Below, one piece after another: positions 30,374 to 34,134 of a stretch of DNA of 37,102 bases. The notes beneath the pieces were generated by a model. It had not been told where the DNA came from. It saw only the letters and a program-made list of their open reading frames with translations, and did no database searches. How positions within the stretch are numbered: position 1 is the first letter of the stretch; each line of letters starts with the position of its first letter. The translations under genes were made by a program, and so were the position numbers. Origin of the DNA: Pyrinomonadaceae bacterium (GTDB taxonomy: Bacteria; Acidobacteriota; Blastocatellia; Pyrinomonadales; Pyrinomonadaceae). The stretch lies in contig JABDJV010000099.1 of assembly GCA_013003295.1 (NCBI GenBank), positions 1 through 37,102 of the forward strand, read 5' to 3'.

Positions 30374-30492
30374 ATAGATATTTTCTCCGAATACTTAAGA
30401 TGCGTAATTATAATCAAAAACGACAAATTTGATATAAAAAAATGAGCGAATGCGGGGAGGCGGTTATTGGTGAGGTATAGAATTTAATTAAT

Positions 30493-31218
30493 TTATTTCC
30501 GGCCGGTATAAATTTCTATTTCCTCAGCGGAGAGTTCTCTTGATACCCCAACCGGAAGTTTGCTGTCGGAAATATGTCCGATTCTTGTGCGGCGGAGTTT
30601 TACGACCGAGTAGCCGATCGCGTCAAACATCTTTCTGATCTGCTGATTGTGTCCCTCGTTTAAGGTGATCTCAAACCAGGCGTTCTTTTCTGTTGCGCGC
30701 AGTTCCTTGATTTGAGCAGGAGCGGTCTTGAAGCCATCCACAAGTCGGATTCCCCGGCGAAGTCTATTGATCGCGTTAGGATTTGGCAATCCTTTAACTT
30801 TTACTTCATAAACCTTTGGTATTTTCCGAGACGACGAGATCAAATTTGCAAACTCGCCATCGTTTGTGAGGATTATCAAACCCTCCGTATTAAAATCCAG
30901 ACGGCCGACGGGAAACAAACGGCCATGTTTTTTGGGAACGAGATCGGTTATGAGTTTTCGGTTTTCCGGATCTGACACGCTCGATAAATATCCTTTTGGT
31001 TTATTGACCAGAATGTAAACGTCTTTGCGGTTTTCCAGGGATGGGTTTATGAGCTTTCCGTTTACCTTAATGTGGTCTTCAGCAGGATCCGCCTTCGACC
31101 CGAGTTTGGTTACCCTTTTGCCGTTGACCGTCACCATGCCGTCGGTGATGAGTTTTTCTGCCTTGCGCCGCGATGTGATTCCGGCCTTGGCGATCAGTTT
31201 TTGTAAGCGTTCTTTCAT
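30493..31218 (-). CDS. rluB: RsuA/RluB-family pseudouridine synthase
   Basis: S4 domain ERLQKLIAKAGITSRRKAEKLI, VNKPKGYLSS, FPVGRLDFNTEGLIILTNDG, GHNQQIRKMFDAIGY. Confidence 0.94.
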   Translation of the reverse strand: MKERLQKLIAKAGITSRRKAEKLITDGMVTVNGKRVTKLGSKADPAEDHIKVNGKLINPSLENRKDVYILVNKPKGYLSSVSDPENRKLITDLVPKKHGRLFPVGRLDFNTEGLIILTNDGEFANLISSSRKIPKVYEVKVKGLPNPNAINRLRRGIRLVDGFKTAPAQIKELRATEKNAWFEITLNEGHNQQIRKMFDAIGYSVVKLRRTRIGHISDSKLPVGVSRELSAEEIEIYTGRK

Positions 31219-31225
31219 TTATCGT

Positions 31226-31263
31226 CAGTGAGCTGTAAGCAGTGAGCCGTAAGCAGTAAGCGG
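31226..31263. repeat. 7-nt degenerate tandem repeat, five units (family B, right-pointing)
   Basis: CAGTGAG|CTGTAAG|CAGTGAG|CCGTAAG|CAGTAAG|CGG; exact 7-nt period. Confidence 0.93.
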
Positions 31264-31500
31264 CTATTTTCGTTTTCCGATGCTCTTTTCCAGTCCGTAT
31301 GTAACGGCTAAACATTCATCGATGAAGTTCTCGACAATCTTATAACGATTTTCGCTCAAATAACCAACTCGGAGTGCAATCTCAGTTTGTGTTTAGTTCA
31401 TTTAACGAACCGATGGCGATGCTCAAAGAGTTTTTGAATTGCCGAGTTGACCGATCAGCTGCTCCCTCCGCAATATTTGACACAAACTTGCACATGGCGG
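31264..31500 (-). pseudogene. C-terminal part of a frameshifted four-helix-bundle (S23/IVP-like) gene
   Basis: Minus-strand conceptual peptide SNIAEGAADRSTRQFKNSLSIAIGSLNELN / TQTEIALRVGYLSENRYKIVENFIDECLAVTYGLEKSIGKRK*, with a 1-nt shift near 31395. Confidence 0.85.
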
Positions 31501-31553
31501 TGTAATCATAGAAACGGGTCGAAATGAATAATCCACGAAAGGACCAGGTCGCA

Positions 31554-32675
31554 ATGAGACATTTCTTATTTATAATAGTGCTGATCTCTGCCACAAGTTT
31601 AATCATTCCGCAGACTGGAATGCGAACTCACGATGATTGGTACTTCACGACAGACGACAGAACGACGAAGATCTATGTTCGCGAAATAGGAATCGGTGAG
31701 CCGTTTATCGTGATTCATGGCGGTTTCGGGGCCGAGCATAGTTACCTGATCGAAGCAGTTCGCGGACTCAGGTCAAAGCATCGGTTTATTTTTTATGACC
31801 AGCGAGGATCGCTCCGTTCTCCAACCGCACCGGAAAATATCTCGGTTGACAAGCACGTCGCCGATATTGAATCTCTGCGGCGGGCTCTTGGCCTGGAACA
31901 GATCAATCTGCTGGGTCATTCGATGGGCACCTTGTTGGCCATGAAATACATGCGCACTTACCCGGGTCGAACCAAGAAAGTTGTACTGGTCGGAGCGCTC
32001 TATCCTCGTGCCGGTCGTTTTCTGAACGATACGGAGCGTGAATTGAAATCGACTTCCGACAAACAGTTCGTCGAATTTACAAAGCGTCCTGAAGTCGCCG
32101 CGGAATTTGAAAAACTTGGGATGAAGGGGGCTGAAAAGCCACCGGCGGAGCGTTCGGCGGAAGAGAATAAGTCTATGGCCGCAGCGTGGCCCAAACTGAC
32201 GCAAAAGCAAAAGGCGCACCTCGACAGGATCAGCAGTGCCGCGCCCAATATCTTTTATATCGAAAGGTGGCCAAGAATGGCTGCCACGCGACCTAATTTC
32301 AAACAAGACGCCGGATCGGCAGCCTTCAAAACGCTCGAAACTGATTACGATTTTGTCGCGGAATTACGTACGCACTCGTATCCGGTTACGGTGATAATCG
32401 GCGATCATGATCTTTCGGATTTTGGAGCACATCGTTGGAGTTGGCTGAACGACGAACTGAATTTAGTGCGGCTGAATGTTATCAAACGAGCCGGCCACAA
32501 TATTTGGATTGATCAGCCGCGGAGCTTCCGTTCGGTTCTTTCAAGGGTCCTTATGGGAGATACCCGGGGCTCCGGATTTGGTTTTCCGCGAGCATCAAAT
32601 TGTTCCTGTCGGCGCATCTGCGAAACGAGACCATACGTTTCCTGCTTCGGAAACTCTTGGGTCAATTATAGATAG
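31554..32675 (+). CDS. alpha/beta-hydrolase (proline-iminopeptidase-like), signal peptide, lying inside the four-helix pseudogene
   Basis: IHGGFGAEHSYL, FYDQRGSLRS, LLGHSMGTLLAMKYM, AGHNIWIDQPRSF. The last ~24 residues are antisense to the four-helix N-terminal fragment. Confidence 0.85.
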   Translation: MRHFLFIIVLISATSLIIPQTGMRTHDDWYFTTDDRTTKIYVREIGIGEPFIVIHGGFGAEHSYLIEAVRGLRSKHRFIFYDQRGSLRSPTAPENISVDKHVADIESLRRALGLEQINLLGHSMGTLLAMKYMRTYPGRTKKVVLVGALYPRAGRFLNDTERELKSTSDKQFVEFTKRPEVAAEFEKLGMKGAEKPPAERSAEENKSMAAAWPKLTQKQKAHLDRISSAAPNIFYIERWPRMAATRPNFKQDAGSAAFKTLETDYDFVAELRTHSYPVTVIIGDHDLSDFGAHRWSWLNDELNLVRLNVIKRAGHNIWIDQPRSFRSVLSRVLMGDTRGSGFGFPRASNCSCRRICETRPYVSCFGNSWVNYR

Positions 32676-32730
32676 TTTCAACAAGGATCATGCCTTTTTG
32701 CCAGGCAATCAGGCGTTTGTGAAGTTTCAT
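32611..32730 (-). pseudogene. N-terminal part of the same four-helix-bundle gene, frameshifted
   Basis: SD AAGGAG then MKLHKRLIAWQKGMILVETIYN / LTQEFPKQETYGLVSQMRR, frame shifted by 1 nt near 32663. Confidence 0.87.
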
Positions 32731-32757
32731 TTTTTTGCTCCTTATCGGGGCCACCCT

Positions 32758-32778
32758 GCTCACCGCTTACCGCTCACT
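32758..32778. repeat. 7-nt degenerate tandem repeat, three units (family B, inverted relative to 31226-31263)
   Basis: GCTCACC|GCTTACC|GCTCACT, reverse complement of the GTRAGCN units; abuts the scpB stop codon. Confidence 0.9.
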
Positions 32779-32779
32779 C

Positions 32780-33337
32780 CTACTGAACCAGATCTTCGAA
32801 GTCTTCAATGCTGGGCAGTTCGGAAAGATCTTTCAAGCCAAACTGTATGAGGAAGTCCTTTGAAGTTCCGTACTGCATCGGGCGTCCGACCGTTTCCTTA
32901 CGCCCCTTTGAAACTATGAGGCGTTTGTCCAGAAGGGTTTTGATCGAAGATGCTGATTGCACTCCGCGAATTTCCAGGATCTCCGGAACCGTTACGGGCT
33001 GTTTGTAGGCGATCACCGAAAGCGTCTCAAGCGACGCGAGAGAGAGCTTCGCTGAAGGGCGGGTCTTTAGAAATTCCCTGATCTCCTCATGGTATTGGGT
33101 TCGAGTAGAAATTTGCCAACCGCCTCCGATCTCGCGAACCTGCAAACCACTTTCGCGTTCTTCATATTCAGCCTGAAGCGCATCGAGAGCGGATTCGATC
33201 GTCTCTTTGTCCTCACCAAGGACATTTATCATCATGCGAACCGTCAAGGGTTCGTCGGCAACAAATATCAGCGCTTCGACCGTTGCGACGAGTTCGCCCG
33301 TTGTTCGTCTTTGTTTTGCGGTAGCTTCTGAGGCCAT
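32780..33337 (-). CDS. scpB: segregation and condensation protein B
   Basis: VATVEALIFVADEPLTVRMMINVLGEDKETIESALDAL, SLASLETLSVIAYKQPVTVPEILEIRGVQSASSIKTLLDKRLI. Confidence 0.95.
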   Translation of the reverse strand: MASEATAKQRRTTGELVATVEALIFVADEPLTVRMMINVLGEDKETIESALDALQAEYEERESGLQVREIGGGWQISTRTQYHEEIREFLKTRPSAKLSLASLETLSVIAYKQPVTVPEILEIRGVQSASSIKTLLDKRLIVSKGRKETVGRPMQYGTSKDFLIQFGLKDLSELPSIEDFEDLVQ

Positions 33338-33351
33338 AAGGTCGGGTTGAA

Positions 33352-34134
33352 TTAAACGGTCTCTAATATAATGTCTTCAAACGTATTCTTTTGCCGGAGT
33401 CGAAAGCTCTCAATTCTGACAATTTCAAGTATTGAAATAAACGCCAAGACCAATTCATATCGGGTTTTAAGCTGCCCAAAGATCTCGAGCACGCTCAAGC
33501 GTTTCTCTTTCAGAATTTTAGCTTTGATCGAGGCGACCATTTCGGCCAGCGTCATTTCTTCTCGTTCGATCTCGAGTTTAACCTCTTCTTTATGACGCTC
33601 CATGATCTTCTGGAAATGCTCAAAAAGGTCAAAGATGGTCGCGCTAACTTCCAGATTATTGTCGTCAGATTCAATCGTTCCGCGCGTAAAAGTCGCCTGC
33701 TCGACAGTGGCGCGCGACCAAAGCATTTCTGCTGCGTTCTTGTATTGTTGATATTCGAGAAGCCGATCAACTAACTCCTGCCGCGGATCCTGAATTTCTT
33801 CCTCGTCCTCAAGGCCTGGTTCTGCCGGCAGAAGCATCTTTGATTTGATCTCGATCAGAGTTGCCGCCATCACCAGAAACTCCGCCGCCACCGCGACGTC
33901 GAATTTCTCCAGCACGCTTATATACTTAAGGTATTCATCAGTAATACGAGCTATCGGGATATCAAAGATGTTTGCCTCTTCCCGGCGAATGAGATAGAGC
34001 AGAAGATCGAGAGGGCCATCAAACTCACCCATGTGCAGCTGAAATTCATCCCTTGATTGGCGGACGATCTGGGGTTTGACGTTCTCAAAATCGAATTCGA
34101 ATTGTTCGTTCTGCTGTTCCATAATTTTTATCAA
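33352..34134 (-). CDS. scpA: segregation and condensation protein A
   Basis: FDGPLDLLLYLIRREEANIFDIPIARITDEYLKYI, AAEFLVMAATLIEIKSKMLLP. Confidence 0.95.
   Translation of the reverse strand: MIKIMEQQNEQFEFDFENVKPQIVRQSRDEFQLHMGEFDGPLDLLLYLIRREEANIFDIPIARITDEYLKYISVLEKFDVAVAAEFLVMAATLIEIKSKMLLPAEPGLEDEEEIQDPRQELVDRLLEYQQYKNAAEMLWSRATVEQATFTRGTIESDDNNLEVSATIFDLFEHFQKIMERHKEEVKLEIEREEMTLAEMVASIKAKILKEKRLSVLEIFGQLKTRYELVLAFISILEIVRIESFRLRQKNTFEDIILETV

Follow-up and report, generated by a model that had tools for sequence, protein, structure and literature searches.

The window, the whole stretch of 37,102 nucleotides analysed here, comes from a Pyrinomonadaceae bacterium (contig JABDJV010000099.1). 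Between its scpB and rluB genes lie the remains of an S23/IVP gene, enclosed by two inverted arrays of a GTRAGCN heptamer (Table 1). Read along the minus strand, the order is scpB, the 5′ array, an AAGGAG motif and the S23 start, followed 1.5 kb further on by the S23 end, the inverted heptamers and rluB. An earlier note, made from the sequence alone, had reported two such arrays, one abutting the scpB stop and the other just before the rluB start, and behind the first a ribosome-binding motif and the ATG of an S23-type frame; all of these are present. Three GTRAGCN heptamers in a row are matched exactly four times in the window, each time at the arms, against 0.01 matches expected from shuffles. 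Both inverted arrays at scpB–rluB are real and far above chance.

Table 1. Features of the scpB–rluB locus, in window coordinates
Feature	Position	Strand	Remarks
rluB-type pseudouridine synthase, downstream host gene	30493–31218	−	PseudoU_synth_2 (2e-22) and S4
3′ arm, five GTRAGCN heptamers in inverse orientation to the 5′ arm	31226–31262	+	between S23 stop and rluB start
S23/IVP pseudogene, C-terminal part, residues 48–118	31270–31480	−	frameshift near 31390; PF05635 and TIGR02436 matches
Secondary insert, 1128 nt	31481–32608	not assigned	splits S23 frame, replaces residues 42–47
Alpha/beta-hydrolase gene (Abhydrolase_1)	31524–32555	+	Pfam 2e-23; signal-like N-terminus
S23/IVP (PF05635/TIGR02436) pseudogene, N-terminal part, residues 1–41	32609–32730	−	frameshift near 32666
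SD-like AAGGAG ahead of S23 start	32738–32743	−	read from sequence
5′ arm, three heptamers (AGTGAGC GGTAAGC GGTGAGC)	32757–32778	−	upstream of S23 frame, abuts scpB stop
scpB, upstream host gene	32780–33337	−	SMC_ScpB 8e-53

The same note took the four-helix-bundle gene to be intact, having joined its two ends and missed what lies between. Against the intact S23 protein of G005, a sister species, the frame aligns in four pieces, with two frameshifts and one insert: residues 1–21 are at 32730–32668, 23–41 at 32665–32609, 48–78 at 31480–31388 and 78–118 at 31392–31270. Identity to the G005 protein is 67–68% in the N-terminal part (tblastn). The intact protein scores 117 bits against TIGR02436 (cut-off 24) and the C-terminal piece in the window 29 bits. 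The insert is missing from the intact G005 element. Its hydrolase gene is antisense to S23, with an open frame that continues to 32675 through the S23 antisense strand. Since the nearest relative of the hydrolase among 25 genomes, 54% identical, sits at another place in G005, the insert appears to have arrived separately and later. With its frame broken and an insert within it, the window element is therefore a relic with good arms.

Between the arms there are only S23 pieces and the hydrolase, with no transposase, as the note had remarked, and no ends shared with insertion sequences. A search of 30400–33400 against Rfam gave no match at E ≤ 0.1, PADLOC matched no defence system, Y1_Tnp had no match on the contig that holds the window, and none of the phage records matched, giving no sign of a phage-borne origin. 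No target-site duplication is visible when scpB–rluB is compared with an empty site, the relatives compared being distant ones.

Presence and absence at shared junctions

The bacterium's own genome (G000) has 10 further PF05635 matches. Where their flanks could be read, by eye, they carry inverted short-unit arrays, each with its own unit, including AGGGATA, GGGTTCA, GGAAGTCTA and GTTGACTGA. The unit is thus a property of each element, and any repeat test must be made per element. The earlier note had named, as evidence against an element, GTRAGCN heptamers scattered through the genome with no link to S23 genes. Taken literally this is what is found, at about 20 genome sites that are mostly S23-free; the unit differs per element, however, and the element-specific units do track S23 genes.

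The contents of scpB–rluB vary among relatives, where the note had advised looking for empty sites. One sister species (L043) has such a site, a 6-nt spacer with no repeat. Another (L049) has an intact S23 gene with 13 GGTGAGC units, and a third (L046) an S23 gene of another subfamily with CAGGGAT units. Several genera (L054, L056, L058, L059) have just a hairpin of inverted arrays, with their own units. The queE–queC junction behaves similarly. Our genome has an S23 gene there with GGAGACGC units, and G022 a member of the same S23 clade that has lost its N-terminal part and has a different unit, its arms still matching each other; L273 is empty, and other genomes have hairpins or nothing. When 31 conserved junctions were compared between G002 and G001, arrays were found at four in G002 and at none of those four in G001. 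All of these empty sites come from different species, and the element borders are therefore inexact. The proposal that repeat, gene and repeat form a discrete insertion is borne out by the sister-species junctions, empty or otherwise filled, and by the matched inverted arrays of many phyla described below.

The same arms can also be found elsewhere: in L101 an S23 gene 70% identical to that of G005, with the same GTRAGCN arms, lies before a uvrD-like gene and not at scpB–rluB. S23 elements are sense-oriented in operons, both neighbours being co-directional in 72 of 91 cases against 371 of 627 (p = 0.0001). Array bases have in places become coding, near 2020–2040 of L049, where they provide the scpB stop codon, and near 1440–1500 of L268, where they lengthen the QueC N-terminus. 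A type I-D CRISPR operon on the Anabaena sp. 90 plasmid pANA02 (L223, 700–1500) contains an S23 gene, flanked by GGTGACA arms, between its cas6 and cas4 genes.

Arms and protein of S23 elements

The earlier note had also advised searching other genomes for inverted short repeats that flank S23 genes. Among 128 S23 genes from many phyla, a 7–9-nt array was found in 170 of 252 flanks, the loci being partly related, from mostly draft genomes and with crude ORF calls. The best period was 7 in 130 flanks, 8 in 27 and 9 in 13; after shuffling, any such period appeared in 7 flanks. Non-S23 genes of the same contigs had arrays in 71 of 624 flanks, an enrichment at S23 of p about 1e-60, and an inverted score of at least 18 was reached by 36% of S23 genes against 0.3% of those other genes. 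Arrays are missing from about one-third of S23 flanks, and some loci of Bacteroidota and Patescibacteria do not rise above background.

The two arms of an element match each other. Each 5′ flank was scored against all 3′ flanks in reverse complement. Among 35 family loci the own partner scored 22.2 on average, other partners 9.1 and the direct orientation 10.5, and the own partner ranked first in 24. For 77 loci from Acidobacteriota, Bacteroidota, Planctomycetota, Proteobacteria, candidate-phyla bacteria, Chloroflexi and others the scores were 17.6 against 8.7, with the own partner first in 33. Where both arms scored, they had the same period in 56 of 60 genes. In predicted RNA folds the arms pair with each other, over a median of 37 bp against 19.5 for shuffled flanks, so that the pairing is partly a matter of composition.

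The unit has a fixed polarity: in 81 of 90 cases G outnumbers C on the sense strand of the 5′ arm, and in 71 of 76 the 3′ arm shows the inverse. AGTGANN is the most frequent unit, with the full AGTGA in 28 of 130 heptamers compared to 2% after shuffling letters within units. Aligning the units to AGTGA biases the letters of the consensus upward, and the letter-shuffle control and strand composition are the fair measures. Other arms have 8-mers (AGGCACAA, AGTTGACA) or 9-mers (AGTCTTGNN). The idea that TGA in a 7-nt period insulates by stop codons was dropped because 8-mers such as AGGCACAA have no stop and 9-mers keep one frame. Arrays lie a median of 28 nt from the S23 start.

Unit and gene co-vary. 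Of S23 pairs at least 60% identical but at unrelated sites, 24% share the unit (6/7 or better), compared to 3% when permuted (p = 0.0005), and S23 clade is associated with unit over all loci (Mantel p = 0.003).

The S23/IVP protein is common and its structures have been solved, yet to our knowledge it has no known function, and we know of no catalytic site. Our structure model (pLDDT 96) has the four-helix fold of solved members, with a TM score of 0.94 to the S23 protein 2gsc; 2gsc and 2rld, also an S23 protein, were each deposited with five chains. Residues 38, 41, 45, 49, 52 and 75 of the G005 protein (Q, R, S, N, E and E) are invariant across 30 diverse S23 proteins. These six polar residues, five of them along one helix, are likely to form a functional site, judging by their conservation.

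Avd, the accessory protein of diversity-generating retroelements (DGRs), has the same fold (TM 0.79 between our model and 4dwl, the sequence match being weak; 24.6 bits against the NCBIfam Avd profile, under its cut-off of 80). The window element differs in having no reverse transcriptase in its own genome: RVT_1 is absent from G000 (85% complete). It is absent too from G008 (100% complete, nine S23 genes) and found in just 18 of 60 family genomes, which makes a dedicated reverse transcriptase improbable, and we rejected it as a partner.

We likewise rejected the RAYT transposase as the mover of arrays. RAYT genes from our genome and three relatives have inverted flanks, which REPs would lead one to expect, but arrays of period 7 or 9 in just 4 of 60 flanks, so arrays do not mark small mobile genes in general. 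G000 itself has 19 matches to Y1_Tnp, RAYT-like and with their own inverted flanks, which make up a separate system of the REP type.

Arrays without an S23 gene

Arrays also occur alone, and gene-less array hairpins are common. A 400-kb sample of G002 yields 82 short-period arrays where a Markov shuffle yields one; 55 have period 7 and 19 have period 9. The whole genome (4.1 Mb) has eight S23 genes. Recurrent units include AGTGAGC, ACTGAGG, AGTCAGA and ATTGAGA. G002 (L181–L200) also has a second repeat class, of period 9 (AGTCTGTTG, CGTGAAATT), likewise in inverted pairs, some longer than 250 nt, as at 677704–677952 and 742317–742580 of contig 1.

Counted over 60 genomes, the number of arrays shows no correlation with that of S23 genes (rho −0.07), leaving S23 gene dosage unsupported as the driver of array number. 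No period-7 array was found in 480 kb from two S23-free genomes, a result weakened by the whole-family counts, which were made with a loose pattern whose backward control is high. Four near-complete S23-free genomes have almost no AGTGANN arrays, and four others without a detected S23 gene (83–93% complete) have many. Two members of one genus of the family, G060 and G070, have about 1,500–1,700 AGTGANN-array matches each, with two S23 genes detected in the first and none in the second. A genome with few S23 genes can thus be rich in arrays.

A probable intergenic class of S23 elements

The arms of S23 genes are inverted arrays of an element-specific unit of 7–9 nt, of fixed polarity and most commonly AGTGANN. 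Arm matches arm, presence is lineage-specific, the elements lie in sense orientation in operons, and at unrelated sites the unit varies with the S23 clade. The window element is probably a decayed representative of a class, widespread and intergenic, whose members each consist of one S23/IVP gene and two such arms and resemble intervening sequences (IVSs).

The anatomy is best read as that of a 23S rRNA IVS placed between genes. Those IVSs, where they carry an S23/IVP frame (Leptospira, Coxiella), likewise have one such gene between inverted repeats able to pair as RNA, as the terminal repeats of S23 elements are predicted to do, and are excised by RNase III; in that of Coxiella, tandem GACAGAT heptamers precede the gene at the RNase III site (PMC4990558). 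The window element differs in lying between protein genes (scpB and rluB) and not inside 23S rRNA, in having arms that are arrays of an element-specific unit and in the abundance of gene-less hairpins. REPIN/RAYT systems also combine a small gene between inverted repeats with gene-less inverted pairs scattered in spacers; there, however, the gene encodes a Y1 transposase and the repeats are REP palindromes, and the RAYT loci of the same genomes have no arrays.

Among the tandem repeats of prokaryotic spacers, heptamers are the most abundant, and there is ‘no clear clue’ to what they do, according to the accessible part of PMC6344855. Those of cyanobacteria (STRR), Xanthomonas (GGGAATC) and Beggiatoaceae (TAACTGA) have the same period and the same location, and are described, in the parts of the sources available, as repeats alone with no S23 link. 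X. campestris, according to the available part of PMC4692102, has 70 inverted pairs of GGGAATC arrays; the structure 2gsc is an S23 protein of this very species. Within open-access literature, part of it accessible in excerpt and with subscription papers outside the scope, no report ties heptamers to S23 genes outside rRNA. We provisionally regard the link as new.

Neither a transposase nor a reverse transcriptase partner was found for the element, which the earlier note proposed, and we too infer, to be RNA-linked or repeat-propagating. Gene and arms would move together as one unit. The element would be read within the host operon mRNA, where its arms could pair and leave the S23 frame in the loop, as in a 23S rRNA IVS, and a pentameric S23 protein may bind the repeated unit in its own RNA or in single-stranded DNA. 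Excision from the transcript might then precede movement, and array-only hairpins would be gene-less derivatives. Mobility itself we infer from these patterns. Several observations count against the element reading: array number is independent of S23 number, four incomplete genomes without a detected S23 gene have arrays, about a third of flanks are array-free, and close strains showed neither a target duplication nor a precise empty site.

The main rival makes the hairpins older. Heptamer hairpins would be a separate, long-standing feature of operon spacers, and a mobile S23 gene would enter their loops just as IVSs enter at helix tips in 23S rRNA. The S23-less hairpins frequent at the same junctions fit this order of events too; arrays far outnumber S23 genes in the G002 sample and do not follow their number, and rRNA IVSs do replace helix loops (PMC4990558). 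We nevertheless think it unlikely, though it deserves to be taken seriously: the empty sister junctions (L043, L273 and the four that separate G002 from G001) are free of hairpins, insertion into existing hairpins does not predict that clade and unit co-vary at unrelated sites, and arm polarity is fixed relative to the gene.

Arrays might instead be binding sites of the S23 protein, with the 5′ array controlling translation of its own gene and scattered arrays forming a regulon. Rings that bind tandem RNA repeats exist (TRAP), and S23 is a pentamer. Arrays lie close to the S23 start and also at many host spacers, and a role in translation has been suggested for TAACTGA heptamers in the accessible part of PMC4679880. 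This account is improbable: sister species do not keep the same array sites, a single genome has elements with different units, genomes with no detected S23 gene may be array-rich and the inverted 3′ arm is left without a role. That slippage produced ordinary spacer repeats, near S23 genes by accident, would suit their general abundance (PMC6344855, as far as accessible) and their scatter in our genome, and is already contradicted, to the point of being scarcely credible, by the enrichment over other genes of the same contigs, the matched inverted arms and the fixed polarity.

Returning to the element reading, a larger claim can be made tentatively, and we hold it possible without yet leaning towards it: that S23 elements are a new class of mobile element with neither transposase nor reverse transcriptase. 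In these the inverted heptamer arms would spread between operon spacers as one unit with their own pentameric four-helix protein, both arms changing unit together and gene-less hairpins being shed; they would be the source of the heptamer excess in spacers, and the rRNA IVS would be the special case that landed in rRNA.

The finding joins two puzzles, that of the S23/IVP protein of no known function and that of the unexplained tandem heptamers in prokaryotic spacers. Matched inverted arms around S23 genes in many phyla give the repeats a testable origin and the protein a testable ligand, and suggest that a much larger intergenic family includes the intervening sequences of rRNA as one of its branches.
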